From Pontimicrobium sp. SW4 (GTDB lineage Bacteria > Bacteroidota > Bacteroidia > Flavobacteriales > Flavobacteriaceae), in NCBI RefSeq assembly GCF_039954625.1, contig NZ_CP157199.1, positions 2,604,001-2,668,000 of the forward strand: a stretch of DNA of 64,000 nt. Reading direction: 5' to 3'. Of the stretch, positions 7,027 through 33,250 are shown piece after piece (positions within the stretch are counted from its first letter, which is position 1; the number at the start of each line of letters is the position of its first letter). Below the pieces are notes generated by a model. That model made no database searches. It saw nothing but the letters and a program-made list of their open reading frames with translations, and had not been told where the DNA came from. Both the position numbers and the translations under genes were made by a program.

Positions 7027-7028
7027 TT

Positions 7029-7775: not shown

Positions 7776-7792
7776 GAAAAATAAATTTTTCG

Positions 7793-15929: not shown

Positions 15930-15943
15930 AATTGTTGTCTTTT

Positions 15944-16017
15944 GTCATTCCTGCGAAGGTAGGAATCTATTTATTCTTTATTGTTATTTTGTGGATTCCT
16001 GCCTTTGCAGGAATGAC
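15944..16017. repeat. Long inverted repeat (GTCATTCCTGC type)
   Basis: GTCATTCCTGCGAAGGTAGG and its near-complement ending in GCAGGAATGAC face each other across a 30-base AT-rich loop in the argH-argE gap. This is the well-known mobile palindrome style found in many genomes (GTCATTCCTGCGAAGGCAGG). It would form a strong hairpin in the mRNA and could reduce readthrough into argH. Confidence 0.8.
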
Positions 16018-16024
16018 AGAATTG

Positions 16025-17092
16025 TTAAGCAACTACTTTATTCAACAATTCAATATATATTTTAACACCTTCTTCTATCTCTTTGAGATAAATAAACTCA
16101 TCCGCAGTATGCGATCGTGTACTATCTCCTGGTCCTAATTTTAAAGAAGGACAGGTTAAACATGCTTGATCTGATAAAGTTGGAGATCCGTAAGTTTTTC
16201 TACCCAAAGAAATTCCAGCCTTTACTAATTCATGATTCACTGGAATGGAAGATGAGTTTAATCGTAAACTACGTGCTTTAATGCTTGTACATGGTGAATT
16301 ATGCACTAACAAATCTGCAATTTCCTGATTAGAGTATTTATCATTTACACGCACATCAACTACCAAATCCACCTCAGCTGGAATTGCATTATGTTGTTTT
16401 CCTGCATTAATTTGTGTCACGGTCATTTTTACTTCGCCTAGTACTTCTGAGACTTCTTTAAATTTAAAATCTCGAAACCATTTTAGCACACTTATGGTAT
16501 TATAAATAGCATTATCATGATTAGGATGCGCCGCATGACTAGGCGTGCCTTTTACCTTGGCATCAAAAACTACCAAGCCTTTTTCGGCTATTGCTAGATG
16601 CATTAAAGTAGGCTCACCAACAATGGCAACATCTATTTTTGGGATAATAGAAAGCATGCTATTTAACCCATTTGCACCACTACTCTCTTCTTCGGCAGAA
16701 GCGACAATTACCAAATTATAGTTTACATCTTTCTTCTCATAAAAATGCGTAAATGTTGCCAATAAAGATACTAAACAACCTCCTGCGTCATTACTTCCCA
16801 ATCCGTACAACTTACCGTCTTCAACAATCGCTTTAAAAGGGTCTTTAGTATACCCATTATTTGGTTTTACTGTATCGTGATGCGAGTTTAATAGAAGCGT
16901 TGGATTGTGCTTGTTAAAATATTTATTAGTAGCCCAAACATTGTTTTTTGTTCTTTGAAACGGAATCTTATAATTCTTAAACCAATTCTCAATTAAAACT
17001 GCGGTGTTCTCTTCTTCGGAAGAAAACGATGGTGTTTCGATTAAATTTTTGAGTAACGTAATAGCGTTTTTTGTTAATTCTTTTTGCTTCAT
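16025..17092 (-). CDS. argE: M20 peptidase-family deacylase (acyl-ornithine/citrulline deacylase)
   Basis: This is a 355-residue M20 metallohydrolase. LLNSHHDTVKPNNGY carries the first metal ligands and catalytic Asp. GSNDAGGCLVSLLA holds the bridging Asp, and ASAEEESSGANG the Glu general base and metal ligand. KGTPSHAAHPN belongs to the dimerisation domain and supplies the conserved His. In arginine synthesis with ArgF' the deacylation step acts on acyl-citrulline instead of acyl-ornithine. By position it should remove the acyl group (succinyl or acetyl) here. Its ATG shares one base with the argB stop. Confidence 0.85.
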   Translation of the reverse strand: MKQKELTKNAITLLKNLIETPSFSSEEENTAVLIENWFKNYKIPFQRTKNNVWATNKYFNKHNPTLLLNSHHDTVKPNNGYTKDPFKAIVEDGKLYGLGSNDAGGCLVSLLATFTHFYEKKDVNYNLVIVASAEEESSGANGLNSMLSIIPKIDVAIVGEPTLMHLAIAEKGLVVFDAKVKGTPSHAAHPNHDNAIYNTISVLKWFRDFKFKEVSEVLGEVKMTVTQINAGKQHNAIPAEVDLVVDVRVNDKYSNQEIADLLVHNSPCTSIKARSLRLNSSSIPVNHELVKAGISLGRKTYGSPTLSDQACLTCPSLKLGPGDSTRSHTADEFIYLKEIEEGVKIYIELLNKVVA

Positions 17093-17868
17093 TATTTCTG
17101 AATGGTTGTGAATTTTGAATTAGATTCGAACAGCATGTTTGGCTTCCCAATACACACTTTAGTTACCTGATGTTCTATCGCATGAAAACAGTTGTTGATT
17201 TTTGGCAACATGCCGTCTGTAATAATCCCTTCATCAATTAAAAATTGATAAGTCTTTGTGTTAATATTTGGAATGATCGAATCCTCATCGTTTACATCTT
17301 TTAGTACACCGTTTTTCTCAAAACAGTAATACAATTCTACCTTAAAATCATTAGCAAACGCAATAGCCAATTCTGATGCTATAGTATCTGCATTGGTATT
17401 TAACAACTGTCCATTCTTATCATGTGTTAATGCACAAAAAACTGGGCTTACATCATTATGAAGTAATAACTGTAATACTTTTGTGTTTACTTGTATGATA
17501 TCTCCAACAAAACCAAAATCTACTTCTTTTACAGGACGTTTCACAGATACTATTGTATTTCCATCTGCTCCAGAAAATCCAACAGCATTACAATTGTTTG
17601 CTTGTAATTGTGCAACAATATTTTTATTAATTTTTCCGGCATATACCATGGTTGCAATATCTAAAGTTTCTGGATCTGTGATACGTCTTCCATTGGTCAT
17701 TTTTACATCAACTCCCATTTGATTCGCCAATTTTGAAGCTAGCTTTCCACCTCCATGCACCAAGATTTTTGGGCCTCTTAGTTTAGAAAAATCACCAAGA
17801 AAATCTATCAATGATGCTTTATCATCAATGATATTTCCTCCAATTTTTATAATTTTTAATGTTTTCAT
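17092..17868 (-). CDS. argB: N-acyl-glutamate kinase
   Basis: This is a 258-residue amino-acid-kinase-fold enzyme that phosphorylates acylated glutamate. IIKIGGNIIDD binds phosphate, and LVHGGGKLASKLANQ and the GFSGADGNTI region are typical of ArgB. The start at 17868 (MKTLKIIK) is preferred. A TTG four codons upstream lies at the edge of a palindromic repeat. Whether the natural substrate is acetyl- or succinyl-glutamate cannot be told from the sequence. Confidence 0.92.
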   Translation of the reverse strand: MKTLKIIKIGGNIIDDKASLIDFLGDFSKLRGPKILVHGGGKLASKLANQMGVDVKMTNGRRITDPETLDIATMVYAGKINKNIVAQLQANNCNAVGFSGADGNTIVSVKRPVKEVDFGFVGDIIQVNTKVLQLLLHNDVSPVFCALTHDKNGQLLNTNADTIASELAIAFANDFKVELYYCFEKNGVLKDVNDEDSIIPNINTKTYQFLIDEGIITDGMLPKINNCFHAIEHQVTKVCIGKPNMLFESNSKFTTIQK

Positions 17869-17875
17869 TTTTCTT

Positions 17876-17935
17876 GTCAAGCTGAACTTGTTTCAGCTTC
17901 TCATTATGTGATTCTAAAATAAATTCAGAATGACG
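17876..17935. repeat. Palindromic repeat, copy 1 (GTCAAGCTGAACTTG type)
   Basis: Two hairpins lie in a row: AAGCTGAA...TTTCAGCTT and GATTCT...AGAATGAC. The same arrangement recurs at 18891-18961. It fills the gap between argF' and argB almost completely. Confidence 0.8.
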
Positions 17936-17936
17936 A

Positions 17937-18875
17937 TTATTTAACGTTTTCTAATATGTTCTTCAATACTACTTGAGCAGCAAATGTCCTGTTATTAGCT
18001 TGTTGAATGACTACTGATTGCTCACTATCTAACACAGCATCCTCAACCACAACATTACGCCTTACAGGCAAACAATGCATAAATTTTGCATTCCCTAATT
18101 TTTCTTTTGTCATCATCCAATTAGACTCTTGCGACAAGATTTTTCCATAGTCAGAATAACTACTCCAATTTTTTACATAAACAAAATCAGCATCCTTTAA
18201 AGCATCTACTTGATTATAATTAATTGGAATATCCTTGGTTATTTTAGCATTTAACTCATAACCTTTTGGATGTGTTATACTAAAATCTACATCCAACTCC
18301 TGCATCATGGTTACAAATGAATTCGCAACTGCTTGCGGTAATGCTTTTGGGTGAGGTGCCCACGACAATACTACCTTTGGTTTTTGCTTTGTCTTTAACT
18401 CTTCAATGGTTATAGCATCTGTTAATGCTTGCAATGGATGCGCTGTTGCACTTTCCATATTTACAATAGGCACAGAAGCGTATTTTTTAAAATTATTGAG
18501 TATATACTCCGTTTCGTCCTTAGCCTTATCTTTTAAACTTGGAAATGCTCTAATTGCAATAATATTGGCATATTGTGAAATTACCTGAGCAACTTCTTTA
18601 ACATGTTCGGCAGTATTTAAATTCATAATACTCCCGTCTTCGTATTCTAAATTCCAAGCATCATTGACATTTAAAATCATGACCTCCATACCTAAGTTTT
18701 TTGCTGCCTTTTCGGTACTTAGTCGCGTTCTTAAGCTAGAATTAAAAAATAGCATAACCAATGTTTTATGCTTTCCTAAATTTTCAAATTGAAATGGGTT
18801 TTGCTTTAATTGAATTGCTTCCTGAATAATTTTGGGAACATTTTCAATATCATCTATGTTTATATATTTTTTCAT
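17937..18875 (-). CDS. argF': N-succinyl/acetyl-ornithine carbamoyltransferase
   Basis: This 312-residue transcarbamylase shows FFNSSLRTRLS (carbamoyl-phosphate loop), SWAPHPKALPQAV and FMHCLPVRRN. These are hallmarks of the acyl-ornithine branch rather than classical OTCase. In the characterised Bacteroides fragilis enzyme a proline near residue 90 gives succinyl specificity, and in the Xanthomonas enzyme a glutamate there gives acetyl specificity. Here the aligned residue (Ala89 in NLNTAEH) is alanine. From memory, replacing the glutamate with small residues shifts specificity to succinyl, so succinyl-ornithine is the more likely substrate. It lies between two palindromic repeats within the arginine cluster. 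Confidence 0.9.
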   Translation of the reverse strand: MKKYINIDDIENVPKIIQEAIQLKQNPFQFENLGKHKTLVMLFFNSSLRTRLSTEKAAKNLGMEVMILNVNDAWNLEYEDGSIMNLNTAEHVKEVAQVISQYANIIAIRAFPSLKDKAKDETEYILNNFKKYASVPIVNMESATAHPLQALTDAITIEELKTKQKPKVVLSWAPHPKALPQAVANSFVTMMQELDVDFSITHPKGYELNAKITKDIPINYNQVDALKDADFVYVKNWSSYSDYGKILSQESNWMMTKEKLGNAKFMHCLPVRRNVVVEDAVLDSEQSVVIQQANNRTFAAQVVLKNILENVK

Positions 18876-18890
18876 TTTTTTAATTTTTAC

Positions 18891-18961
18891 GTCAAGCTGA
18901 ACTTGTTTCAGCTTCTCATTAGTATATTTTTATGCGATTCTGAAATGAATTCAGAATGACG
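18891..18961. repeat. Palindromic repeat, copy 2 (GTCAAGCTGAACTTG type)
   Basis: This shares the first 29 bases (GTCAAGCTGAACTTGTTTCA and onward to CTCATTA) with copy 1, then has GATTCTGAAATGAATTCAGA ATGACG as a more complete second palindrome. It lies between argD and argF'. Confidence 0.8.
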
Positions 18962-18964
18962 CTA

Positions 18965-20098
18965 TTAACTACTTAGTAACCTACTCCTTAATGCATCAAA
19001 AAATAGATCTATATGTTCTTTTTGAATTGTTAAAGGTGGTAGAATTCTTAATAAATTAGGATTCTTTGAACTTCCAGTGAATATATGATGCCTATGTATC
19101 AATGTTTTTCGTAATTCTGCTATTGGGAAATCGAATTCCAATCCTAACATTAACCCTCTTCCTTTTATGTTTTTTATTTGTAAAATTCCTCCTGCTTTCT
19201 CAATGAAATATTTAGAAATTTCTTTTACATGCTGCATTACATTCTCTTTCTTCAACACATCCAAAACAGCTATTGATGCTACACATGCCAAATGATTTCC
19301 TCCAAAGGTTGTTCCTAATAATCCAAATGATGCTTTAATATCTGGGTGAATTAATATGCCTCCGATAGGGAATCCATTACCCATGCCTTTCGCCATCGAA
19401 ATAATATCTGGCACAATATCATGTTTTTGAAAAGCAAAGAAATCACCTGTTCTTCCAAATCCACATTGGATTTCATCTGCAATTAAAAGTGCCCCATGAA
19501 GTTTACACAATTTGCTAATGCCTTGATAAAACGCTGTAGTAACCTCATCCAATCCTCCAATTCCTTGAATAGTTTCAATAATTACAGCACAAACATCTCC
19601 TGTTTTCAATACGTCACTTAACCCTTCTAAATCTCCCAATTCTAAAAATGCTACTTCTTGTTGAGCATTTATTGGTGCAATTATTTTAGGATTGTCGGTT
19701 GCGGCCACAGCTGCAGAAGTACGACCATGAAAAGAGTTTTTAAAGGACACAATTTTCTTATTTCCAGTATGAAAAGATGCTAACTTAAGAGCATTTTCAT
19801 TAGCTTCTGCTCCAGAATTACATAAGAATAATTGATAACTCTCACAGCCTGATAACTTCCCTAATTTATCCGCTAATTCAATTTGCAAAGGGTTTTGAAT
19901 AGAATTACTATAGAACCCTAATTTGCCGACTTGGTCGCTTATACGCTTTACATATTCTGGATGCGAATGACCAATTGAAATTACAGCATGACCTCCATAT
20001 AAATCGAGATATTTAGTGTTGTTTTCATCATACACATAAACACCTTTTGCAGTTACAGGAGTGATGTTAAACAAAGGATATACGTCGAATAATTTCAT
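18965..20098 (-). CDS. argD: Acyl-ornithine aminotransferase
   Basis: This is a 377-residue class III PLP aminotransferase that converts the acyl-glutamate semialdehyde to acyl-ornithine. It shows CNSGAEANENALKLA, LIADEIQCGFGRTG (PLP-ring Asp) and SMAKGMGNGFPIGG with the Schiff-base lysine. The length is typical of ArgD. Its start codon overlaps the proC stop by 4 bases, indicating coupled translation. Confidence 0.92.
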   Translation of the reverse strand: MKLFDVYPLFNITPVTAKGVYVYDENNTKYLDLYGGHAVISIGHSHPEYVKRISDQVGKLGFYSNSIQNPLQIELADKLGKLSGCESYQLFLCNSGAEANENALKLASFHTGNKKIVSFKNSFHGRTSAAVAATDNPKIIAPINAQQEVAFLELGDLEGLSDVLKTGDVCAVIIETIQGIGGLDEVTTAFYQGISKLCKLHGALLIADEIQCGFGRTGDFFAFQKHDIVPDIISMAKGMGNGFPIGGILIHPDIKASFGLLGTTFGGNHLACVASIAVLDVLKKENVMQHVKEISKYFIEKAGGILQIKNIKGRGLMLGLEFDFPIAELRKTLIHRHHIFTGSSKNPNLLRILPPLTIQKEHIDLFFDALRSRLLSS

Positions 20099-20895
20099 AA
20101 TTGCTCTGTTTTAATACTATTAATTTTCTTATAAGAAGACACCATCCCTTGAATTAAAGAAGAGCTTAATCCTTTATGTTCCATTTCGTTCAAACCTTCT
20201 ATCGTACACCCTTTCGGCGTGGTTACTTTATCTATTTCCTGTTCTGGATGATTGCCTGTATTAATTAATAAACTTGCAGCTCCTTCACAAGTATGCATAG
20301 CTAATGCCTGTGCTTCTTTAGCATCAAAACCTAGTTGAATTGCTGCTTGCGTTGTTGCTCTAATCAATCGCATCCAAAATGCAATTCCGCTAGCACAAAC
20401 TACAGTTGCAGCTTGCATTTGACTTTCAGGAATCGTTAATGAAGTTCCTAACCTGTTAAAAATAGCCTCTGCAATTTTTACTCTTAAACTTCCTTTTTCA
20501 TTACTACACAAACAGGTCATAGACTTCCCAACTGCAATAGCTGTATTTGGCATTGCTCTAATTAGAAATTTATCTGCTCCAACAATGCTTTCCATTTTTT
20601 CAATGGAAAACCCAGTAATGGTCGAAATCAACACATGATTTTCATGAAGCAATGGTTTTATATCGATTAAGATATTCTCCATATGTGCTGGTTGAACAGC
20701 AAAAATTATGATGTCTGAGTTTTTAACCGCTTCGGTATTATCCACCGTTAGAAATACATTTTTATAACCTTCAAACTCTTTTATGCTATCTAAATCCCTC
20801 TTTGTTAAATAGAGTGATGTAATGGCATTTGTTGTTATCAATCCTTTTGCGATTGACTTTCCTAAATTTCCTGTTCCTATGATTGCTATTTTCAT
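20095..20895 (-). CDS. proC: Pyrroline-5-carboxylate reductase
   Basis: This 266-residue enzyme reduces pyrroline-5-carboxylate to proline. It has an N-terminal Rossmann motif (IGTGNLGKSIAKGL), FAVQPAHMENIL, and the C-terminal signature region with VTTPKGCTIEGL. A proline gene inside the arginine cluster links two glutamate-derived pathways. In flavobacteria this neighbourhood seems usual. It overlaps argD by 4 bases. Confidence 0.9.
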   Translation of the reverse strand: MKIAIIGTGNLGKSIAKGLITTNAITSLYLTKRDLDSIKEFEGYKNVFLTVDNTEAVKNSDIIIFAVQPAHMENILIDIKPLLHENHVLISTITGFSIEKMESIVGADKFLIRAMPNTAIAVGKSMTCLCSNEKGSLRVKIAEAIFNRLGTSLTIPESQMQAATVVCASGIAFWMRLIRATTQAAIQLGFDAKEAQALAMHTCEGAASLLINTGNHPEQEIDKVTTPKGCTIEGLNEMEHKGLSSSLIQGMVSSYKKINSIKTEQL

Positions 20896-20903
20896 ATTTA
20901 TTG

Positions 20904-20974
20904 ACCGCGAAAGCGGTTATCTTTTTAATTAAACTTTTTTCTAACTAAGACCTTTCGACTGCGCTCAAGGTGAT
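20904..20974. repeat. Palindromic and partial repeat between proC and argC
   Basis: ACCGC and GCGGT close on a GAAA loop (20904-20917), followed by AGACCTTTCGACTGCGCTCA AGGTGA, half of a common CCTTCGACTGCGCTCAGGGTGA-type repeat. The 85-base gap has no other content. Confidence 0.55.
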
Positions 20975-20980
20975 AGCATG

Positions 20981-21958
20981 TTAAAAAAAGTTGGCTTTAA
21001 GCTGTAATCCTTCAACTTCTTCAAAACCATACATTAAATTCATGTTTTGAATGGCTTGACCTGAAGCGCCTTTTAATAGATTATCTATTATGCTTGTAAT
21101 TAATAATTTGTTATTGTGTTTGTGTAAATGCAATAAACATTTATTTGTATTTACAACTTGCTTCAAATGCACCTCTTCATTAGACACAAAAGTGAAAGCT
21201 GCATCTTTATAGTAGTCATTATAAAGTTTTTTAGCGTCTTCTAAACTACCTTGAAATTTTGTGTACACTGTGGCGAAAATTCCTCTAGAAAAATTCCCTC
21301 TATTGGGCATAAAATTAATTTCAGAATTAAAATCATTTTGTATTTGCTTAACTGTTTGATTTATTTCTCCTAAATGCTGATGCGTAAACGCTTTGTAATG
21401 CGAGAAGTTATTGTCTCTCCATGTAAAATGCGTTGTTTTGGACAAGGACGTTCCAGCTCCTGTTGCTCCTGTAGTTGCATTAATATGAACATCATCATTT
21501 AACAAACTTTTATCCGCTAATGGTAAAATCGCCAATTGCAAGGCCGTTGCAAAACAACCTGGATTTGCTATATAATTCGCAGATTTAATCTTCTCTTTTT
21601 GTAATTCTGGTAAGCCATATACAAAGGTTTTGCCTTGAAAGACCTTGTCCTTTTCTAATCTGAAATCGTTACTCAAATCGATCATCTTTGTTTTAGCCGA
21701 AAAGCTATTCTTTTCTAAAAAAGCTTTTGAATTTCCATGTCCTAAACATAAAAACAAGACATCGATACTTGAATTAATTGAATCTGTGAAATTCATATCT
21801 ATGGAACCCACTAAATCTTGATGGATGCTACTAATTTTATTTCCTGCATTTGATGTGCTGTACACAAAATTGATTTCTGCTTTTGGATGATGCATCAACA
21901 ATCTTATTAATTCTCCAGCTGTATAACCAGCTCCTCCTATGATTCCTACTTGTAGCAT
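20981..21958 (-). CDS. argC: N-acyl-gamma-glutamyl-phosphate reductase
   Basis: This 325-residue NADPH-dependent reductase acts on the acyl-glutamyl phosphate made by ArgB. The N-terminal GIIGGAGYTAGELIRLL is the dinucleotide-binding loop, and NPGCFATALQLAILPL holds the catalytic cysteine (the family signature GCYAT is here GCFAT). FMPNRGNFSRG is the substrate-side segment. The length is normal. It starts 2 bases after the argG stop, so it is tightly co-transcribed. Confidence 0.94.
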   Translation of the reverse strand: MLQVGIIGGAGYTAGELIRLLMHHPKAEINFVYSTSNAGNKISSIHQDLVGSIDMNFTDSINSSIDVLFLCLGHGNSKAFLEKNSFSAKTKMIDLSNDFRLEKDKVFQGKTFVYGLPELQKEKIKSANYIANPGCFATALQLAILPLADKSLLNDDVHINATTGATGAGTSLSKTTHFTWRDNNFSHYKAFTHQHLGEINQTVKQIQNDFNSEINFMPNRGNFSRGIFATVYTKFQGSLEDAKKLYNDYYKDAAFTFVSNEEVHLKQVVNTNKCLLHLHKHNNKLLITSIIDNLLKGASGQAIQNMNLMYGFEEVEGLQLKANFF

Positions 21959-21960
21959 AA

Positions 21961-23139
21961 CTAATTATTTACTTGTTGATATATTTTGTTTTGATTTCCA
22001 AGAATCTTAATGAATCCTTTTGCTTCTTCATCGGTCCAACCTTTGTTCATTTCGCCATAACTTCCATACTTTGCATTCATTAAATCATGTTTGGAAATTA
22101 TTCCATCTAAAGAAAAATGATACGGTTTTAAGCTTACAATAACGTCTCCAGAAACTTGCTCCTGACCACTCTGTAAAAAGGCTTCCATGTCTCTCATTAC
22201 AGGATCCAAATATTGACCTTCATGCAAATGCATTCCATAAAAACTTGCTAAATACTCTTTGTGTTGTAACTGCCATTTAGTAAGTGTGTGCTTCTCTAAT
22301 AAATGATGTGCCTTTATAATGATTAAAGCAGCAGCAGCTTCAAAACCCACTCTCCCTTTTATACCAACAATAGTATCGCCTACATGAATATCTCTACCTA
22401 TTGCATATACTGAAGCTAGATTATTCAACACTTCAATATTAACCTCAGGATTGTTTTCTATTCCATTAACAGCAACCAATTCGCCTTTTAAAAAAGTTAA
22501 TGTCACTTTTTCTTCTTCAGTATGTTCTAATTGTGAAGGATACGCTTCACTTGGCAACGGTTTTTCTGAAGTTAAAGTCTCCTCGCCTCCAACGCTTGTT
22601 CCCCAAAGGCCTTTGTTAATAGAATATTTTGCCTTATCCCAAGACATGTCAATACCATTACTTTTTAGGTATTCAATCTCTTCTTGTCTTGATAGTTTTT
22701 GATCTCTAATTGGTGTAATAATTTGAATATGTGGTGCTAAAATTTGAAAAATCATATCGAACCTCACTTGGTCATTTCCTGCGCCTGTACTTCCATGTGC
22801 AATATATTTTGCGTCTATACTTTTTGCGTATTCAACAATTTCGATAGCTTGAATAATTCTTTCGGCACTGACAGATAAAGGATAGGTATTGTTTTTAAGT
22901 ACATTTCCAAAGATTAAATACTTTACTACTTTTTGATAGAATGTCCCAACCGCATCAATGTTTTTATACGTAGATACTCCCATTTTATAAGCATTTGTCT
23001 CAATGGTATTTATCTCTTCTTGCGTAAATCCGCCAGTATTAACACTCACTGCATGCACGTCATATCCTTTTTTTGATAAACTAACGGCACAATAAGACGT
23101 ATCTAAACCTCCACTATATGCTATGACTAATTTTTTCAT
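21961..23139 (-). CDS. argG: Argininosuccinate synthase
   Basis: This 392-residue enzyme ligates citrulline and aspartate using ATP. The N-terminal AYSGGLDTSYCAVSL is the ATP pyrophosphatase (PP-loop) motif, and HGSTGAGNDQVRFDM is the second family signature. In the succinylated pathway, citrulline is freed by the ArgE-like enzyme first. The start overlaps the stop of the upstream GNAT gene by 4 bases. Confidence 0.95.
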   Translation of the reverse strand: MKKLVIAYSGGLDTSYCAVSLSKKGYDVHAVSVNTGGFTQEEINTIETNAYKMGVSTYKNIDAVGTFYQKVVKYLIFGNVLKNNTYPLSVSAERIIQAIEIVEYAKSIDAKYIAHGSTGAGNDQVRFDMIFQILAPHIQIITPIRDQKLSRQEEIEYLKSNGIDMSWDKAKYSINKGLWGTSVGGEETLTSEKPLPSEAYPSQLEHTEEEKVTLTFLKGELVAVNGIENNPEVNIEVLNNLASVYAIGRDIHVGDTIVGIKGRVGFEAAAALIIIKAHHLLEKHTLTKWQLQHKEYLASFYGMHLHEGQYLDPVMRDMEAFLQSGQEQVSGDVIVSLKPYHFSLDGIISKHDLMNAKYGSYGEMNKGWTDEEAKGFIKILGNQNKIYQQVNN

Positions 23140-24126: not shown

Positions 24127-25389
24127 CTACACCAAAAACTGAAATAAATCTGGTTTATCGTTTAGATAATCTCCATAAAAATTATGCAATTTCATCTTAG
24201 TAATCAATGGCTTTAAATCGGATGGTGATTTTAACTCTAACCCTACAACTGCAACATCATTCTCACGATTTGCCTTTTTTGTATACTCAAAATGAGTAAT
24301 ATCATCATTTGGGCCTAAAATTTCAGCCACAAACTCTCTTAAAGCTCCTGGTCGTTGTGGAAACTTAATAATAAAATAGTGTTTTAAACTCGCATATAAT
24401 AATGCGCGTTCTTTTATTTCGGGAGTTCTTGTAATATCATTATTACTACCACTAACTAGGCAAACCACATTTTTACCTTTAATCTCATCAGCATAAAAAT
24501 CTAATGCTGCAATACTTAATGCGCCTGCTGGTTCAACAACTACAGCATCTTTATTATATAATTCTAGTATTGTTTGACATACTTTGCCTTCAGGAACAGT
24601 AATCATATCGTCTAAAGTATCTTTACAAATAGCAAAGGTTTTATCGCCAACGCTTCTTACTGCAGCACCATCAACAAAGTTTTCAATATTTTTAAGCTTT
24701 ATAACGCGTCCTTTTTGTATGGATGTTAGCATGGACGGAGCTCCTTCTGGTTCTACTCCAATTATTTTAGTTTTAGGAGATAGTAACTTAAACACAGTAG
24801 ATAAGCCTGAAGCTAATCCACCACCTCCTACAGGAATAAAAACATAATCAATAGGTTTACTACTTTGGTTGATTATTTCTAATCCTACAGTCGCTTGACC
24901 TTCTATTACTTTTTCATCATTAAAAGGATGAATAAACGTTTTATTTAAACGCTCGCACTCTACCAATGCTTCATGATAAGAATCATCAAAAGTATCACCT
25001 ACCAATACTATATCTATAAATTCTTCACCAAACATTTTTACCTGCTCCACCTTTTGATTAGGTGTTGGAGCAGGCATATAAATAGTTCCTTTTGTTTGTA
25101 ATAATTTACATGATAATGCCACACCTTGTGCATGATTTCCTGCACTTGCACATATTACTCCGTTTTCAATTTCACTTTCGCTTAAAGAAGCCATTTTATT
25201 ATAAGCACCTCTAATTTTATACGAACGTACTTGTTGCAAGTCTTCTCTCTTGAATAATACATCACAGTCAAATTGTCTTGAATATCTTGTATTATAAGTT
25301 AAAGGCGTTATAGACACAACATCTTTTAACTTGTTTGCTGCTGTTTCTACTGCCTTTATACTTGGGAAATATGTTGTTGTGGTTTTCAT
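24127..25389 (-). CDS. ilvA: Threonine deaminase
   Basis: This is a 420-residue fold-type II PLP enzyme making 2-oxobutyrate for isoleucine. KREDLQQVRSYKIRGAYNKM holds the Schiff-base lysine, and VGGGGLASGLSTV the phosphate loop. The C-terminal 80 residues (PQRPGALREFVAEILGPND) form one ACT-like regulatory domain rather than the two of the long E. coli enzyme, so feedback may differ. It is the last gene of the ilv operon, with its start 9 bases after the ilvC stop. Confidence 0.93.
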   Translation of the reverse strand: MKTTTTYFPSIKAVETAANKLKDVVSITPLTYNTRYSRQFDCDVLFKREDLQQVRSYKIRGAYNKMASLSESEIENGVICASAGNHAQGVALSCKLLQTKGTIYMPAPTPNQKVEQVKMFGEEFIDIVLVGDTFDDSYHEALVECERLNKTFIHPFNDEKVIEGQATVGLEIINQSSKPIDYVFIPVGGGGLASGLSTVFKLLSPKTKIIGVEPEGAPSMLTSIQKGRVIKLKNIENFVDGAAVRSVGDKTFAICKDTLDDMITVPEGKVCQTILELYNKDAVVVEPAGALSIAALDFYADEIKGKNVVCLVSGSNNDITRTPEIKERALLYASLKHYFIIKFPQRPGALREFVAEILGPNDDITHFEYTKKANRENDVAVVGLELKSPSDLKPLITKMKLHNFYGDYLNDKPDLFQFLV

Positions 25390-25398: not shown

Positions 25399-26898
25399 TT
25401 AAGCTAAGACTGGATTTTTTTGAGTTTCGGTTTTTATAACCTTCATATCAGTCATAGCAGTACGCAGTGTTTTTCCAATAGATTCAATTGGATGGTTTCT
25501 AATGTTATTATTAACCTCAATTAATTCAGCATTATCAACAGCATTTGTTGTTGAAAAAGATTTCCCAATAACATCTGTTTTAATAGATTTCATAAAATCT
25601 ACTAACATTGGTTTTGCAGCATGGTCAAACAAATAACATCCGTATTCAGCTGTATCTGAAATAATGCGATTCATTTCAAATAATTTTTTTCTAGCTACTG
25701 TATTTGCAATTAGCGGCAACTCATGTAATGACTCATAATAAGCTGACTCTTCTATAATTCCAGAATTCACCATAGTTTCAAAAGCTAATTCTACTCCTGC
25801 TCTTACAAAGGCAACCATTAGCACACCATGGTCGAAATATTCTTGCTCTGATATGTGCTCAGATGTTGCTTCTGTTTTTTCAAAAGCAGTTTCTCCTGTT
25901 GCAGCTCTCCATTTTAATAAATTTACATCGTCATTTGCCCAATCTTCCATCATAGTTTGAGAGAAATACCCAGACATGATATCGTCCATATGCTTCTCAA
26001 ACAATGGTTTCATAATTGTTTTAAGCTCTTCTGATAATTGGTATGCTTTAATTTTAGCAGGATTAGATAGACGATCCATCATATTTGTAATACCGCCATG
26101 TTTTAAGGCCTCAGTAATAGTTTCCCAACCATACTGAATTAATTTTGACGCATAATTAGGATTAATTCCTTCTTCTACCATTTTATCAAAAGATAAGATG
26201 GAAGCTGTTTGTAACACGCCACATAAAATAGTTTGCTCACCCATTAAATCACTCTTTACCTCAGCAACAAACGACGATTCTAATACACCTGCTTTATGTC
26301 CTCCTGTTGCAGCAGCATACGCTTTTGCTTGCTCCCAACCTTTTCCTTCTGGGTCATTTTCAGGATGCACAGCTGTTAATGTTGGTACTCCAAAGCCTCT
26401 TAAATACTCTTCTCTGACTTCGGTTCCAGGACACTTTGGTGCTACCATAATTACGGTAAGGTCTTTACGAATTTGCTTCCCCTCTTCAACAATATTAAAA
26501 CCATGTGAATACGACAATGTCGCACCTTGTTTCATCATTGGCATTACTGTATCCACAACATTTGAGTGTTGTTTATCTGGTGTTAAGTTTAAAACCAAAT
26601 CTGCATTTGGTATTAACTCTTCATAAGTCCCAACAGTAAATCCATTAGAACTAGCATTTTTAAAAGACTGACGCTCTTCTTTAATAGCTTGTTCACGCAG
26701 TGCGTATGAAATATCTAAACCAGAATCTCTCATATTCAATCCTTGGTTTAATCCTTGTGCTCCACAACCTACTATTACTATTTTTTTCCCTTTTAAAACT
26801 TCAACTCCGTTCTCAAATTCTGAAGATTCCATAAATCTACACTTAGACAATTGATCTAGTTTTTGACCTAACGATAGTGTATTAAAATAATTTGCCAT
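25399..26898 (-). CDS. ilvC: Ketol-acid reductoisomerase, long (class II) form
   Basis: This 499-residue enzyme isomerises and reduces acetolactate. The NADPH-binding loop is [20 protein letters not shown], followed by [10 protein letters not shown]. Catalytic-domain segments are [18 protein letters not shown] and [12 protein letters not shown], the latter with metal-binding Asp and Glu. The length and a duplicated knotted C-terminal domain place it with the long enzymes like that of E. coli rather than the roughly 330-residue class I. It sits between ilvH and ilvA in the operon. Confidence 0.95.
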
Positions 26899-26910: not shown

Positions 26911-27441
26911 TTATTGATTAAATGCCTTTAGCATTTGTGATATTTGCATTGGTTCTTTAGTGACTGCTATACGTCCTGAACGTGTAAACTGTAAAATTCC
27001 GAAAACACTTAACTCTCTATGTAAAAGCTCTATCTCATGTCTTCTACCTGACTTTTCAAGTACAAAAAAATCTCTATTTACAGTGACAATTTGAGCATTA
27101 CTCTCCTTAATTATATTCTGAATTTCACGCTCTTCAAACAGTAAGTCAGACTTAATTTTAAACATTGCCGATTCCTGATAAATGGTTTCTTCATCAGTAT
27201 GATAATAGGCTTTTATAACCTCTATTTGTTTTTCAATTTGACCAATAATTTTTTTAATTTGATCTTCGGTCATTTCTACAACTATTGTAAAACGAGAAAC
27301 ACCTTCAATTTCAGATACTGAAATGTTTAAACTTTCAATATTTATACGTCTTCTTTGAAAAATTGCCGAAACACGATTTAACAATCCAATATTATTTTCG
27401 GTATATATAGAGATTGTATATGTTTTATTTTCTATATCCAT
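26911..27441 (-). CDS. ilvH: Acetolactate synthase small (regulatory) subunit
   Basis: This 176-residue subunit has an N-terminal ACT domain (YTISIYTENNIGLLNRVSAI, then FQRRRINIESL), where valine binds in homologues. A second ALS_ss_C-type domain follows (FKIKSDLLFEEREIQ to ITRS-like GRIAVTKEP). It should make the IlvB enzyme valine-sensitive. It is 2 bases from ilvB, so the subunits are co-translated. Confidence 0.92.
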   Translation of the reverse strand: MDIENKTYTISIYTENNIGLLNRVSAIFQRRRINIESLNISVSEIEGVSRFTIVVEMTEDQIKKIIGQIEKQIEVIKAYYHTDEETIYQESAMFKIKSDLLFEEREIQNIIKESNAQIVTVNRDFFVLEKSGRRHEIELLHRELSVFGILQFTRSGRIAVTKEPMQISQMLKAFNQ

Positions 27442-27443
27442 AA

Positions 27444-29177
27444 CTATTCTAATCTTATATCTGATACTGAGGCTCCCGAAGGCACCATTGGAAATACATT
27501 ATTTTCTTTTTCTACACAAACTTCTAAGAAATATGCCTCTTTTGAAGCCATCATTTCTGACACAGCGTTTGCTAAATCTTCTCTTTTTGTAACACGTTTA
27601 GCATCTATATAGTAGCCTTTAGCAATTGTTATAAAGTCTGGATTTGTCATTTCTGTAGATGCATAACGTTTATCAAAAAACAATTGCTGCCATTGACGTA
27701 CCATTCCTAAAAACTCATTGTTTAATACCACAATCTTCACTGCTGCTTTTTGCTGAAAAATGGTTCCTAATTCCTGTATAGTCATTTGATAACCACCATC
27801 TCCTATTATAGCAACTACTTCTCGTTCTGGCGCTGCCATTTTAGCTCCAATAGCTGCAGGTAATGCAAATCCCATAGTCCCTAAACCACCTGAAGTAATG
27901 TTACTTTTTGTTTCATTAAACTCGGCATAACGACAAGCAATCATTTGATGTTGCCCAACATCAGACACTATTGCTGCTTTACCTTTGCTTTGAATGTTAA
28001 TCTCTTTAAGAACTTCACCCATTGTTAATCCTTCTTTCGTTGGGTGTAAATCATCCTTAATCACTTTTTCAAATTCAAAAGCATATAAATCTTTGAATTT
28101 TTGAAGCCATTCCTGATGAGAATTTTTATTTAGTAATGGTAATAACAATTCTAAACTTTCTTTTGCGTTACCTAATACAGCAACATCTGTCTTTACATTT
28201 TTATCTATCTCTGCAGGATCAATTTCAAAGTGAATAACTTTAGCCTGAGTTGCATATTCATCTAATTTTCCTGTTACACGATCATCAAAACGCATCCCAA
28301 TAGCGATTAACACATCACATTCATTGGTTAATACATTTGGCGCATAATTACCATGCATTCCTACCATTCCAATATTTAATGGATGTGATGTTGGTATAGC
28401 AGAAGCCCCCATAATAGTCCATGCCGAAGGTATTCCTGTTTTATCTATAACTGCTTTAAATTCTTCTTCGGCTTTACCAAGAATCACACCTTGACCCCAA
28501 ATTATCATTGGTTTTTTCGCATTATTAATTAACTCTGCCGCCGCTTTAACTGATTCAATATTTGTTTCAGGAATAGGCTTGTAGCTTCTTATGCCTTCAC
28601 ACTTTTTATATTGAAAATCAAACTCTTCAAATTGTGCATCCTTAGTAATATCTATTAAAACTGGTCCAGGGCGTCCGCTTTTTGCAATATAAAATGCTTT
28701 TGCAATCACTTCAGGTATTTCTGATGCTTTGGTTATTTGGTGATTCCATTTAGTTACTGGTGTTGAAATTCCAACAATATCTGTTTCTTGAAATGCATCA
28801 CTACCAAGTAAATGTGAAGGCACTTGACCTGTAATACATACCATTGGTGTAGAATCTATTTGTGCATCTGCTATCCCAGTTATTAAATTAGTAGCTCCTG
28901 GTCCAGAAGTTGCCATAGCAACTCCTACTTTTCCAGAAATGCGAGCATATCCTTGCGCTGCATGTGTAGCACCTTGTTCGTGACGTGTAAGTACATGATG
29001 TATTTTATCTTGATACTTAAAAAGTTCGTCGTAAACTGGCATTATAGCACCACCTGGATAACCATATAGTATATCGACACCTTCTGCTAATAAACATCTT
29101 ACTATGGCTTCGCTACCTGAAATACGCTCTTTAGGCTGCTCTAAATATTGCTTTTGTTTTATTGTTTGTGTATCCAT
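27444..29177 (-). CDS. ilvB: Acetolactate synthase large subunit
   Basis: This 577-residue ThDP enzyme makes acetolactate and acetohydroxybutyrate. YGYPGGAIMPVYDELF and TRHEQGATHAAQGYAR carry the catalytic glutamate. GDGGYQMTIQELGT through NNEFLGMVRQWQ is the ThDP-Mg GDG...N motif and herbicide-site region. The length is normal. It lies 8 bases after ilvD and 2 before ilvH. Confidence 0.95.
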   Translation of the reverse strand: MDTQTIKQKQYLEQPKERISGSEAIVRCLLAEGVDILYGYPGGAIMPVYDELFKYQDKIHHVLTRHEQGATHAAQGYARISGKVGVAMATSGPGATNLITGIADAQIDSTPMVCITGQVPSHLLGSDAFQETDIVGISTPVTKWNHQITKASEIPEVIAKAFYIAKSGRPGPVLIDITKDAQFEEFDFQYKKCEGIRSYKPIPETNIESVKAAAELINNAKKPMIIWGQGVILGKAEEEFKAVIDKTGIPSAWTIMGASAIPTSHPLNIGMVGMHGNYAPNVLTNECDVLIAIGMRFDDRVTGKLDEYATQAKVIHFEIDPAEIDKNVKTDVAVLGNAKESLELLLPLLNKNSHQEWLQKFKDLYAFEFEKVIKDDLHPTKEGLTMGEVLKEINIQSKGKAAIVSDVGQHQMIACRYAEFNETKSNITSGGLGTMGFALPAAIGAKMAAPEREVVAIIGDGGYQMTIQELGTIFQQKAAVKIVVLNNEFLGMVRQWQQLFFDKRYASTEMTNPDFITIAKGYYIDAKRVTKREDLANAVSEMMASKEAYFLEVCVEKENNVFPMVPSGASVSDIRLE

Positions 29178-29185: not shown

Positions 29186-30871
29186 TTAAAATTCATCAGT
29201 TACACATCCTTTAGATGCTGATGATACAGTTCTTGCATATTTATATAATATTCCTTTTTTGTGCTTTAAGTCTGGCATAACCCAATTAAATTTTCTTTCT
29301 AATAACTCTTCTTCAGAAAGCTGTACATTAATGGAATTGTCTTCTGCATTAATTCTAATTTTGTCCCCAGTTTGTAATAAGCCTATGGCTCCACCTGACT
29401 GAGCTTCTGGTGTAATGTGTCCTACTACAAAACCGTGTGTGCCTCCAGAAAAACGTCCATCTGTGATTAAAGCAACCGACTTCCCTAAACCAGCTCCCAT
29501 AATTAGAGACGTTGGTTTTAACATTTCTGGCATTCCTGGGCCACCTTTAGGCCCTACATAACGTATTACAACTACATCGCCTTTTTCAACCTCTCCATTA
29601 GATATTCCAGTATTAGCAGCTTGCTCTCCATCATATACAACCGCTTTACCTTCAAACAATAATCCTTCGTTTCCGCTAATTTTTGCAACCGCTCCTTCGG
29701 GAGCTAAGTTTCCATATAAGATTTGAATATTTCCTGAAGTCTTTAATGCTTTATCTTTTGGATAAATCACATCTTGATTACTTTCAAACGTAAGTGGCTC
29801 AATATCTTTTAAATTTTCAGCTAAAGTTTTTCCTGTTACTGTTAAACAATCTCCATATAAATATCCATTGTCTAATAAATATTTCATAACTGCTGGTGTA
29901 CCTCCAATACCATGAACATCTTCCATTAAATATTTTCCAGAAGGTTTTAAGTCTGCTATTAATGGTGTTCTATCACTAACTCGTTGGAAATCTTCTAAAG
30001 TAAAATCTATATCAGCAGCATGCGCAATTGCTAAAAAATGTAGCACTGCATTTGTAGAACCTCCTAATGCATTTACCAATGCAATAGCGTTTTCAATAGA
30101 TTTTTTAGAAATTATATCTAAAGGTTTTAAATCTAGCTCTAGTAGATTTTTAATAGCTAACGCAGTTCTTTCTGCTTCAGATAATTTGTTTGGATTCTCA
30201 GCTGGAATTGACGAGTTATATGGTAATGAAAAGCCCATACACTCAATTGCTGAAGCCATTGTATTTGCAGTATACATCCCACCGCAAGCACCAGCACCTG
30301 GAATGGCTCTTCTTATAATTTCTTTATACTCATTCTCATCTATTTCACCAGCAACTTTTTGCCCTAAAGCTTCAAAAGCTGAGACTATATTAAGCTTTCT
30401 TCCTTTATACTTTCCTGAAGCTATAGTACCACCATACATCATTATAGATGGTCTGTTTAATCGTAGCATAGCAATAACTGCTCCTGGCATATTTTTATCA
30501 CAGCCAACAACAGAGATTAGCGCATCATAACTCTGTGCATTCATTACAGTTTCTATAGAATCTGCAATTATATCTCTTGAAGCTAAAGAATAATTCATAC
30601 CTGAAGTTCCCATAGATATCCCATCACTTACACCAATGGTATTAAACCCTAACCCAACTAAACCAGCTATCTTACATTCTATTTTTACTTCTCCAGCCAA
30701 ACCATTTAGATGCATATTACATGGGTTTCCATCATAACCAGTACTAGCAATCCCTACTTGGGCCTTATGCATATCTTCATCAGTTAAGCCTACTGCGTAC
30801 AACATTGCTTGTGATGCTGGTTGAGACTCATCCTGTGTTAATCTACTACTATGTTTATTCAATTCCTTCAT
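29186..30871 (-). CDS. ilvD: Dihydroxy-acid dehydratase
   Basis: This 561-residue Fe-S dehydratase produces the 2-oxo acids of valine and isoleucine. Cysteines for the cluster appear in [23 protein letters not shown] and [34 protein letters not shown] is the C-terminal signature. It is the first structural gene of ilvD-B-H-C-A. Its start is 185 bases downstream of the second attenuator terminator, so transcription should depend on readthrough of both terminators. Confidence 0.95.
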
Positions 30872-31056
30872 TCTATTTCTATAATTTCTTGATAAGCGAA
30901 GCTTATAGAGTTCGAAAGTAAATCTTTACAAATATTCTGTGTTTTACTCATTTATTTCTCGTTTAAATTCATTTAACAGCGACTTAATTTAATTTATTGA
31001 TTATCAATTATTTAATTAATTATTTTTATGATGTTCAATACTTAAAAAATTATCAT

Positions 31057-31086
31057 AAAAAAAACCTGCATCTTACTGATACAGGC
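31057..31086 (-). terminator. Attenuator terminator 2 of the ilv leader
   Basis: On the minus strand CCTGTATC (31085-31078), loop AGTAA and GATGCAGG (31072-31065) form an 8-bp stem followed by eight T. The left arm also pairs perfectly with TGATACAG (31115-31108), just after leader peptide 2. Those two pairings cannot coexist. Confidence 0.9.
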
Positions 31087-31117
31087 TTTAAATATGATTA
31101 TAGCAATCTGTATCAAC

Positions 31118-31180
31118 TCAACTGGAGCTAATAATGACAACAACACAAATAATGATTGCTATGGTAAATTCTATATTCAT
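31118..31180 (-). CDS. ilv leader peptide 2
   Basis: This 20-codon frame starts at ATG 31180 and ends at TGA 31118-31120. Its central run IAIIICVVVII is almost pure isoleucine and valine, the control-codon pattern of branched-chain attenuators. It sits 32 bases upstream of a perfect terminator whose antiterminator strand begins 3 bases after this frame's stop codon. Stalling on Ile or Val codons would favour the antiterminator and expression of ilvDBHCA. The peptide itself has no expected function. Confidence 0.88.
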   Translation of the reverse strand: MNIEFTIAIIICVVVIISSS

Positions 31181-31193
31181 TTTTTCTATAAAC

Positions 31194-31220
31194 TAAAAAA
31201 ACCTTCCGTTTAGGGAAGGC
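31194..31220 (-). terminator. Attenuator terminator 1 of the ilv leader
   Basis: CCTTCC (31219-31214), loop CTAAAC and GGAAGG (31207-31202) form a stem followed by seven T on the minus strand. The left arm with its loop, CCTTCCCT, can instead pair with AGGGAA-T-GG (31256-31248, one bulge), which overlaps the stop codon of leader peptide 1. Confidence 0.88.
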
Positions 31221-31254
31221 TTTAAATTTATTTTAAAATTTACAATACCATTCC

Positions 31255-31317
31255 CTATCGTTGTGAAATAATCACTACGACAATAATAGAAATAATATTT
31301 AAAATTTGTTTTTTCAC
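31255..31317 (-). CDS. ilv leader peptide 1
   Basis: This 20-codon frame starts at GTG 31317 and ends at TAG 31255-31257. It contains ILNIISIIVVVII, 11 Ile/Leu/Val among 20 residues. The GTG start is the least certain point: no Shine-Dalgarno site is seen, as is common in this phylum. Its stop codon is embedded in the proximal antiterminator strand of terminator 1, the usual geometry of translation-coupled attenuation. With leader peptide 2 it forms two successive, independently complete attenuators. Confidence 0.8.
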   Translation of the reverse strand: MKKQILNIISIIVVVIISQR

Positions 31318-31328
31318 AATAATTAAGA

Positions 31329-31358
31329 CAAATATCAAAAAATATTTTAACATTACAA
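31329..31358 (-). promoter_or_regulatory. Putative ilv promoter
   Basis: On the minus strand TTG (31358-31356), 19 bases, then GATATTTG (31336-31329) approximates TTG / TAnnTTTG. An alternative TTG (31381-31379) with AATATTTG (31363-31356) has a 15-base spacer but gives a longer 5' end before leader peptide 1. Which is used cannot be decided here. Confidence 0.35.
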
Positions 31359-31421
31359 ATATTCTATATTTTTATTTTCAACATTAAAACTTAATATATT
31401 TACACTCTTATATAATTTTAT

Positions 31422-32048
31422 ATGCTTAAAACAGTAGATGTAACTTTTTCTTACACTAAAGAATCTTCTTTTAATTTTCCTGATATTGAGTTAACCAGTA
31501 GTCAGTCATTATTAATTCTTGGTAAATCGGGTATTGGTAAGACTACTCTTTTACATTTATTGGCAGGAATTTTAAGTCCTGATAATGGAGATATTTTCGT
31601 CAAGGATACCAATATCACCAGTATTAGTAGTAAAAAATTAGATACTTTTAGAGGAAAGCATATTGGTATTGTTTTTCAAAACACTATTGCCGTTTCGTCA
31701 TTGACCGTTTACGAAAACTTACAAGCTAGATTGTATTTTAGTGGAATTTCCAATCAAAAAGAAGCGATTGAAAACATTTTGGATCAATTAGATTTAGTTT
31801 CTGTAAAAAACCAAAAACCTAATACATTAAGTACAGGTCAATTGCAACGTTTGGGTATTGCTTTAGGCGTTATTCATAAACCAGATATTATTCTTGCAGA
31901 TGAACCCACTTCAAGTTTAGATGATGAAAATTGTGAATTAGTAATTGATTTATTGAAAAATCAGGCAAAAAAGTCGAATGCGAATTTGATTATCATCACT
32001 CATGATCAACGTATAAAAAATTCATTTACTAATACTATTGTTTTATGA
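31422..32048 (+). CDS. ABC transporter ATP-binding protein (LolD/MacB type)
   Basis: This 208-residue ATPase has Walker A GKSGIGKTTLLHLL, a Q-loop at GIVFQN, the signature LSTGQLQRLGIAL (LSTGQ in place of LSGGQ), Walker B DIILADEPTSSLD and the switch His in IIITHDQ. It should power the FtsX-type permease that overlaps it by 4 bases. MacB-family ATPases drive extraction or mechanotransmission rather than import. It is divergent from the ilv operon, sharing the upstream gap. Confidence 0.9.
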   Translation: MLKTVDVTFSYTKESSFNFPDIELTSSQSLLILGKSGIGKTTLLHLLAGILSPDNGDIFVKDTNITSISSKKLDTFRGKHIGIVFQNTIAVSSLTVYENLQARLYFSGISNQKEAIENILDQLDLVSVKNQKPNTLSTGQLQRLGIALGVIHKPDIILADEPTSSLDDENCELVIDLLKNQAKKSNANLIIITHDQRIKNSFTNTIVL

Positions 32049-33250
32049 ACATTGTAACGCTCAGTTATAAAAATATTATTGCCAAACCGTTACAAACTTT
32101 TTTAACGGTTTTAATACTTTCTTTAAGCATAGGACTACTCCTTGGAGTAAAACAGCTGAACAAAGTTTTTGAATCTCAATTACAACAAAGTTTAAACGGA
32201 GTTGATATGGTTGTTGGTGCCAAAGGTAGTCCGTTACAATTAGTACTTTCTACTGTTTTACATATTGACAATCCCACTGGGAATATTTCTTATAATGAAG
32301 CAAAAAAGATTGCAGAAAACAAATACATTGAAGATGCTATTCCAGTTTCAATTGGCGATAATTATAAAGGCTATAAAATTGTTGGTACTTCTATTGGTTT
32401 TGTCGATTTACATAAAACCAGTATAGAAACTGGAGCTATGTTCAATACAACCAATGAAGTTGTAATAGGTAATGCTGTTTCTGAAAACTTAAACTTAAAC
32501 ATTGGAGATACTCTTTATAGCTCGCATGGAATGATTGAAAATGCTGTTGAAAATCATGATGAACATCCTCTTAAAGTTGTAGGGATTTTGAAACCTACGC
32601 AAAATGTTATTGATCGATTAATTTTAACAAATCTAGAAACTGTTTGGCATCTCCATGAACACGAAGATAAAAATAGTAACCATGATAATCACAATCATGA
32701 CAACGAAGATATAACAGCATTATTAATAAAGTTTCAAAATAAAAGGGGATTGTTATTTCTCCCAAGGAGTATTAATGAAAATACACCATTTCAAGCAGCA
32801 TTACCAAAGTATCAACTAGATAAACTTTTTAAATTTACAGCAATAGGCACAAAAGCAATTACATGGATTGCTCTTTCTATCTTATTGGTTTCTGGCATAA
32901 GTATGTTTGTTAGCTTATATAGAATGGTAAAAGAAAGAGCTAAAGAATTAGCTTTAATTAGAACCTATGGCGCTAGTAGAAACAGGTTAATTTTACTTGT
33001 ATTTTCTGAAGGTTTATTAGTTGGCCTTTTTAGCTTTTTCTTTGGAGTTTTGTTAGCTACCTTTAGCTTACAAGCTATATTTTCGTTAATTAAAGACACT
33101 TATAAACAACAAATCTATTTATTAGAATACCATAATGACATCTTAGAATTGTTATTGTTTATATTTGGTATAATTATTATTGCAACATTAATAGCCATTC
33201 GTCCAATATTTAAAATGGATATTTCTAAAATTATAAGTCATGAAAGTTAA
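32045..33250 (+). CDS. FtsX/MacB-type permease with His-rich periplasmic loop
   Basis: This 401-residue permease has one N-terminal membrane helix (about residues 14-34), a large periplasmic domain, and three C-terminal helices (about 270-295, 320-350, 370-395), the MacB layout. The periplasmic domain contains HLHEHEDKNSNHDNHNHDNE (about residues 202-221), a His/Asp/Glu cluster suited to binding zinc or a similar metal. The C-terminus ends in the common DISKIIS motif. It overlaps the ATPase by 4 bases and the DUF3299-like gene by 11 bases, so all three make one unit. A metal-related role is inferred from the His-rich loop only. Confidence 0.85.
   Translation: MNIVTLSYKNIIAKPLQTFLTVLILSLSIGLLLGVKQLNKVFESQLQQSLNGVDMVVGAKGSPLQLVLSTVLHIDNPTGNISYNEAKKIAENKYIEDAIPVSIGDNYKGYKIVGTSIGFVDLHKTSIETGAMFNTTNEVVIGNAVSENLNLNIGDTLYSSHGMIENAVENHDEHPLKVVGILKPTQNVIDRLILTNLETVWHLHEHEDKNSNHDNHNHDNEDITALLIKFQNKRGLLFLPRSINENTPFQAALPKYQLDKLFKFTAIGTKAITWIALSILLVSGISMFVSLYRMVKERAKELALIRTYGASRNRLILLVFSEGLLVGLFSFFFGVLLATFSLQAIFSLIKDTYKQQIYLLEYHNDILELLLFIFGIIIIATLIAIRPIFKMDISKIISHES

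Follow-up and report, generated by a model that had tools for sequence, protein, structure and literature searches.

Two probable isoleucine/valine leader-peptide attenuators in series before ilvDBHCA in a member of the Flavobacteriaceae

The window, the whole 64 kb stretch of DNA analysed here, carries on its minus strand a set of branched-chain amino acid genes with a composite leader region. In transcription order, this strand presents a promoter-like site, leader 1, terminator 1, leader 2, terminator 2, a 189-nt stretch, and the genes ilvD-ilvB-ilvH-ilvC-ilvA. The controlled gene nearest the leaders is ilvD, encoding dihydroxy-acid dehydratase (29186..30871; TIGR00110, 719 bits). It is followed by the genes for the large (ilvB, 27444..29177; TIGR00118) and small (ilvH/ilvN, 26911..27441; TIGR00119) subunits of acetolactate synthase, ketol-acid reductoisomerase (ilvC, 25399..26898; TIGR00465), and threonine ammonia-lyase (ilvA, 24127..25389; TIGR02079), all on the minus strand and all with profile matches above cut-off. 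By these matches, ilvDBHCA are the genes that make Ile and Val, the amino acids of the codon runs in the leaders. In each of the 40 genomes checked, ilvA starts 5.5-6.6 kb past the ilvD start and in the same orientation, and the top leuA-like match falls outside the ilvD-ilvA stretch (positions compared by eye). As judged from translations, the window also holds leuA-leuC-leuD-leuB-like genes and an apparent arginine-biosynthesis cluster, at 4364-8911 (+) and 14655-23139 (-). Both clusters are without a leader-terminator module in the scans.

Two short frames precede the operon, both on the minus strand. Leader peptide 1, (M)KKQILNIISIIVVVIISQR, spans 20 codons at 31255..31317, from a GTG start at 31317 to a TAG stop at 31255. 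Leader peptide 2, MNIEFTIAIIICVVVIISSS, likewise of 20 codons, occupies 31118..31180, with an ATG start at 31180 and a TGA stop at 31118. Their Ile/Val runs are IIVVVII and IIICVVVII, and like frames are found in relatives. An in-frame ATG at 31353 would extend leader 1 to 32 codons; GTG is the likelier start because this ATG falls within the only promoter-like site (31358-31329).

Each leader is followed by an intrinsic terminator on the same strand. Terminator 1 (31198..31223; -12.1 kcal/mol) has the arms CCTTCC/GGAAGG and terminator 2 (31061..31089; -14.7 kcal/mol, 12 pairs) the arms CCTGTATC/GATGCAGG, both leading into a U-tract. These exemplify two terminator types, type 1 (CCTTCC/GGAAGG) and type 2 (CCTGTATC/GATACAGG), named by their arms and defined after inspection, into which most terminators of the relatives fall. 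A second, mutually exclusive pairing is available to each left arm. Antiterminator arm 1, AGGGAATGG (31248..31256, minus), overlaps the stop codon and pairs with 31220-31212 with one bulged T, while arm 2, TTGATACAG (31108..31116, minus), begins at the second base past the stop and pairs with 31084-31076. Duplex prediction gives -12.7 kcal/mol for each of the antiterminators, AGGGAA-T-GG:CCTTCCCT and TTGATACAG:CTGTATCAG. Over a longer test stretch the arm-1 duplex reaches -14.1 kcal/mol, with none of 200 shuffles as good, and the arm-2 pairing has a p of 0.005 against 200 shuffles. A 1:2 hairpin is also predicted at 31244..31299 (minus; -18.0 kcal/mol), pairing leader-1 codons 7-16 with the segment from codon 18 to GGTATT beyond the stop and enclosing the antiterminator arm. 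The first-pass annotation of this DNA had described both 20-codon frames with their cores, both terminators, and both alternative pairings, and all of them were located as it described. RNA structure prediction, which it had proposed as a check, gives each module a fold much more stable than those of shuffled sequences (z -5.7 and -4.6).

A leader-terminator module was scanned for as an Ile/Val-rich frame with a terminator within 45 nt downstream. At the same thresholds, both strands of the whole 64 kb yield only these two modules, and none of 2000 dinucleotide shuffles of 31421-30872 gave even one, against the two observed. A looser scan picks up three weak leader-like frames at 51228 (+), 51251 (-), and 52410 (-), beside strong ACCACGC/GCGTGGT terminators that are probably ordinary gene-end terminators. 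For a T-box or riboswitch, no curated RNA family scored above threshold in 30000-32500 (E<=1). The only hit was a weak one of Rfam Phe_leader (RF01859) to part of the first module, at 26.1 bits versus a gathering score of 55. There is no Phe run here and the likeness is that of attenuators in general; with this sub-threshold match alone, assignment to a known RNA family was rejected.

The probable promoter P1, TTG-N19-GATATTTG, lies at 31329..31358 (minus). It is of the Bacteroidota type, with the consensus -33 TTTG / -7 TAnnTTTG as given in PMC7366714, and differs from it in the first -7 base; the same paper describes the -33 motif as not found in Flavobacterium johnsoniae. P1 is the sole match to TTG-N17..21-nAnnTTTG on the minus strand of 31460-30872. 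Of 118 module-bearing loci, 49 have a like site within the 70 nt that precede their first leader, versus 2.1 expected after shuffling. By consensus match, no promoter-like site occurs between stop 1 and ATG 2 in the 15 distinct tandem loci, leaving no candidate for a separate leader-2 promoter. With a promoter before leader 1 and none before leader 2, leader 2 would most simply be read only on transcripts that have passed the first gate. Leader 2 starts 17 nt past the terminator-1 stem in the window and 14-20 nt past it in 13 of the 15 distinct tandem loci, the other two having 25 and 47 nt.

Two samples of relatives were compared with the window. The family sample comprises 150 ilvD loci and 149 genomes (G298 gave two), all belonging to the window's family or order. 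It consists of the window, 23 loci, 28 further loci, and 100 from the match list, minus L087 and L103, whose upstream DNA was too short. The matching genomes, 231 in number, were examined in part, and the distant IlvD relatives L105-L110 were left out. The second sample holds 80 named loci, some of them from genomes that are also in the first (the modules of L028 are those of L092); L081, the window itself, was dropped, and L180, with one leader paired with two terminators, was counted as single. The 137 modules entering the model, the cruder pairing score, and the codon counts described below include five repeats, giving 132 distinct ones.

With a strict detector, which misses decayed or unusual leaders such as that of L003, the 150 loci divide into 14 with both modules, 58 with type 1 only, 16 with type 2 only, 2 with another type, and 60 with none. 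Where both occur, the order is always type 1 then type 2, and the reverse was never seen in these loci. The 80 named loci include two with a 1-2 pair (L007 Lutibacter and L028 Gaetbulibacter), 12 with type 1, 3 with type 2, 9 with another type, 52 with none, and two other tandems (L029 Aquimarina and L020, on a contig labelled Ignavibacteriae). The two leaders of L020 are Leu/Ile-rich. Within the window's genus, four of six genomes have both modules and two have type 1 only. G002 is congeneric with the window genome, and the modules of its locus (L092) equal those of Gaetbulibacter sp. S0825 (L028). Across the family sample, the predicted tandem is in the minority yet recurs in Flavobacteriaceae. 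It had been called unusual, which agrees with its presence in about a tenth of the sample. On conservation of both leaders in relatives, a check that the first-pass annotation had set for its own reading, the outcome is mixed: the pair does recur in fixed order, but either gate can be absent, as the type-1-only and type-2-only loci attest. The second gate appears dispensable, since the pair is a minority state and two congeners have type 1 alone. Leader-terminator modules before ilvD are common in the Bacteroidota sampled. Single Ile/Val modules before ilvD occur far beyond the genus, in Flavobacterium, Elizabethkingia, Saprospiraceae, and others; loci with a single module are L036, L042, L046, L048, L050, L052, L054, L056, L059, L071, L073, and L080.

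Several features of the leader frames are consistent with translation. Among the 43 type-1 leaders of 20 codons, 42 start with ATG and one, that of the window, with GTG. Between these leaders the synonymous share of single-base codon changes is 0.404 versus 0.227 expected, and differences at codon positions 1/2/3 number 3237/1454/3924, figures in which sequence pairs are not independent and many position-1 changes are Ile/Val swaps. Bacteroidota mostly start translation without Shine-Dalgarno pairing. The leaders are read as probably translated. Codon choice in the leaders departs from that of 43 ilvD genes: GTC makes up 159 of 360 Val codons (44%) versus 158 of 1682 (9%), and ATA 50 of 696 Ile codons (7%) versus 369 of 1734 (21%). 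The sole tRNA-Val found, with 35 tRNA loci scanned of 45 matches, had the anticodon TAC. As proof of tRNA sensing, codon choice was set aside, because hairpin constraints may explain part of the bias.

The alternative pairings were assessed across the relatives. The segment around the stop codon pairs with the terminator left arm better than shuffles (p<=0.05) in 94 of the 132 distinct modules; a first, cruder score had placed 79 of 137 at or above the 95th percentile of shuffles. When regions of other modules are swapped in, p<=0.05 is reached in only 24 of 132, because the arms are alike within a type. Type-1 regions average -9.6 kcal/mol with type-1 arms and -7.5 with type-2 arms, and type-2 regions -5.7 with type-1 arms and -11.9 with type-2 arms. 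Both antiterminators pass in 14 of 17 two-module loci, and in the other three one is not significantly above shuffles. In consensus folds, computed for 83 type-1 and 34 type-2 modules, the terminator and an inner leader hairpin come out and the antiterminators do not.

Leader RNA folds better than its synonymous recodings in 60 of 83 type-1, 18 of 34 type-2, and 6 of 15 other modules, which may be taken as a sign of the 1:2 stem. For the window, none of 200 synonymous recodings of leader 1 folds as well as the native RNA, and leader 2 fails the same test (p 0.115). Over the 14 tandem loci listed for this test, p<=0.05 is reached by leader 1 in 12 and by leader 2 in 5.

The effect of ribosome position was modelled on nascent RNA just before the right arm of the terminator emerges, with a ribosome footprint masking bases codon by codon. 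While Ile/Val codons occupy the A site, the antiterminator has a mean probability of 0.93 over the 137 modules; the mean is 0.14 once the ribosome has reached the stop and 0.54 when no ribosome is present. The difference between Ile/Val codons and stop exceeds 0.3 in 130 of 137 modules versus 63 of 137 with a shuffled spacer. Shortening or lengthening the footprint by two bases gives 125 and 133 of 137. With the three footprints, the last Ile/Val codon is followed at a median distance of 2, 1, or 0 codons by the last permissive one; the shuffled-spacer control also has a median of 1, with a wider spread. For window leader 1, the values from the last Ile onward are 0.99, 0.49, 0.67, and 0.02, then 0.08 at the stop. 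For window leader 2 they are 0.88, 0.44, 0.00, and 0.02, then back to 0.64 at the stop, and in leader 2 of the nearest IlvD neighbour (L111) the antiterminator still has 0.75 when the stop is reached. With no ribosome on it, window leader-1 RNA already has an antiterminator probability of 0.98, so that the model does not favour protection by the 1:2 stem in this leader. In the model, then, the antiterminator excludes the terminator and is freed by a stalled ribosome, less cleanly for window leader 2 at its stop. Gate 2 is less well supported than gate 1, by the recoding test as well as by the model.

Taken together, the locus is probably a case of ordinary ribosome-mediated attenuation used twice in series, from one promoter, before ilvDBHCA. 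This is how the first-pass annotation had read it; two Ile/Val attenuators in tandem are still the best-fitting reading, and relatives share the pair. RNA polymerase would start at P1 and transcribe leader 1. When tRNA-Ile and tRNA-Val are charged, the ribosome would reach the stop and cover arm 1, whereupon terminator 1 would form and transcription end. When Ile or Val is short, the ribosome would stall in the IISIIVVVII run, leaving arm 1 free to pair with the left arm of terminator 1, and the polymerase would continue. Leader 2 begins 17 nt on, and the same decision would be repeated at terminator 2. Given termination at both sites, the read-through fractions would multiply, because the operon would be transcribed only by polymerases that have passed both gates. 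The expected outcome would be tighter repression at plenty, a steeper starvation response, and a lower maximum. The first-pass annotation had proposed that two gates might sharpen or widen the response to Ile/Val starvation. On this reading both gates would work in cells.

This reading has to be weighed against simpler ones. It is hardly credible that the region is a passive terminator array or a leftover of older genes, with Ile/Val frames arising by chance in A+T-rich DNA. An A+T-rich region does favour ATT codons, but the dinucleotide shuffles failed to give one module, and the frames, stop positions, and pairings recur in relatives. A single working gate deserves more thought and is nonetheless improbable. 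The other gate, more likely the second, would then be a relic or a nearly neutral passenger, with a weak terminator or a poorly translated leader 2, and the operon would act as a single attenuator. Such a state would suit the far greater number of single-module loci (74 versus 14 with both, of 150), the absence of gate 2 from two of the six genomes of the genus, the failure of the leader-2 recoding test in 9 of 14 tandem loci, the window among them, and the lack of a clean modelled stop-codon switch for leader 2 of the window and L111. However, leader 2 in these same two loci keeps its Ile/Val run and its antiterminator (p 0.005 for the window and 0.010 for L111 versus shuffles), and terminator 2 of the window has its 12 pairs. 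Tandem leader 2 carries 6.7 Ile codons versus 3.5 in single type-2 leaders (p 6e-6), the opposite of decay, and the tandem is found in both large IlvD clades.

The same Ile-richness bears on what the second gate senses. Gate 1 could respond to Ile and Val and gate 2 mainly to Ile, making an AND-like filter in place of a sharper single-signal switch. This would be a variant of attenuation in series and is not exclusive of it. The idea draws on the greater Ile content of tandem leader 2 and on three other congeners in which leader 2 is almost a pure Ile run (NIIIIAII, NIIIIVII). The window's own leader 2, however, holds VVV, and across 16 tandem loci, one of them a repeat, no significant difference in Val count separates leader 1 from leader 2 (2.62 versus 2.06, p 0.18). 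The filter is rather unlikely. Since the Val counts do not differ significantly, Ile and Val are probably what both gates of the window respond to. Different amino acids for its two leaders are not supported, both carrying Ile and Val.

Attenuation in series also raises the question of origin. Compared with each other, the window's modules score 22, within the range of shuffles (shuffle maximum 29). A recent duplication is not supported on this ground, and a juxtaposition of two kinds of attenuator is suggested, the modules showing no likeness beyond chance. In Aquimarina (L029) one module clearly duplicates the other, with a score of 87 versus a shuffle maximum of 26, and some likeness is seen in the 1-2 loci L163, L203, and L229 and in L020, whose module pairs score above every shuffle. 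In a FastTree phylogeny of 150 IlvD proteins, where 61 of the 147 inner forks have poor support, 10 changes account for the 1-2 state versus a shuffled mean of 14.5, and the state is present in both large clades. Either an early pair lost many times or repeated gains would fit this tree.

The IlvD proteins may have a history of their own. Window IlvD shares 94% identity with the protein of one congener, 84-94% with those of many other genera, and 68-69% with those of four other congeners. Leader 1 is nearly unchanged among congeners while IlvD diverges. The identity pattern suggests transfer or replacement of ilvD in Flavobacteriaceae, where the gene may have moved or been replaced.

A broader account can be offered tentatively, as quite possible though short of probable. 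A two-gate Ile/Val series switch would have evolved in Flavobacteriaceae from two unlike attenuator types, multiplying read-through at two tRNA-charging sensors, with gate 2 drifting to Ile alone where both are kept, and Aquimarina would have arrived at its pair separately by duplication. If this is true, placing ribosome-gated terminators in series would be a selectable and repeatedly used means of tuning how steeply amino-acid control responds. The one- and two-gate relatives would form a ready-made natural experiment. If both gates work, relatives with one gate, the other gate, or two gates would let the cost and gain of cascaded like sensors be measured.

Leader-peptide attenuation is textbook biology, and the branched-chain operons of E. 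coli and ilvBNC of Corynebacterium are known with one leader each. The branched-chain attenuators of E. coli, Listeria (rli60), and Corynebacterium ilvBNC share with the present locus a leader rich in the amino acids of the pathway, a common arm for terminator and antiterminator, and the target genes. They differ in having one leader, whereas here two complete units stand in series, in another phylum. The E. coli operons ilvGMEDA, ilvBN, and leu are named in PMC1183508. Rli60 lies before ilvD in Listeria and is presented in PMC5864092 as an attenuator tested by mutation, with one leader. Architecture and logic here are most likely those of classic ribosome-mediated attenuation, the new element being two gates in series.

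Two known systems place more than one element in a leader. Salmonella mgtCBR has two short ORFs (mgtM and mgtP) in one leader, each affecting transcription; PMC3641672 has this operon sensing ATP and proline charging through stem-loops unlike intrinsic terminators. The likeness lies in the two short ORFs of one leader region. In contrast with mgtCBR as portrayed there, both leaders of the window carry Ile and Val before a biosynthetic operon, though leader 2 of tandems is Ile-rich, and both stem-loops are intrinsic terminators. In the literature searched, the one tandem leader-ORF case described joins two different signals. Bacillus clausii metE, treated in the same article (PMC3641672), combines tandem SAM and B12 riboswitches with two expected terminators in one leader. 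It too has two independent RNA gates, but these are metabolite-binding RNA and, in that description, involve no leader peptides. A Bacteroides transcriptome (PMC7366714) includes, among its reported features, short ORFs reminiscent of leader peptides. The literature searched was mostly open-access, with subscription papers mostly outside its scope. In it, no account of ilv leader attenuation in Bacteroidota was recognised, nor one of two leader attenuators of the same specificity in series. The first-pass annotation knew of no description for this phylum, a claim that this search, with the survey of Lopatovskaya et al. 2010 outside it, does not contradict.

Between the attenuators and ilvD lies a further conserved element (30912..31037, minus), made of the blocks TGAACATCATA, TTAAA, a TTGATAATCAA dyad (CTGATAATCAG-like), TGAATTTAA/TGAATTTAACC, and TTTACTTTCGA/TTAATTTCGA. 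Aligned in 52 loci, it folds weakly as RNA (-3.1 kcal/mol). A third leader or RNA structure before ilvD was rejected, as the blocks hardly fold and the dyad does not vary like a helix. The element is possibly an operator or a second promoter, and it could hold a promoter bypassing both gates. Its first two blocks have one exact match in the genome. The first block is absent from all 19 type-2 loci and all 13 other loci; it occurs in 54 of 235 loci, made up of 7 of the 16 loci that carry the 1-2 pair, 31 of the 70 type-1 loci, and 16 of the 117 loci with no detected module.
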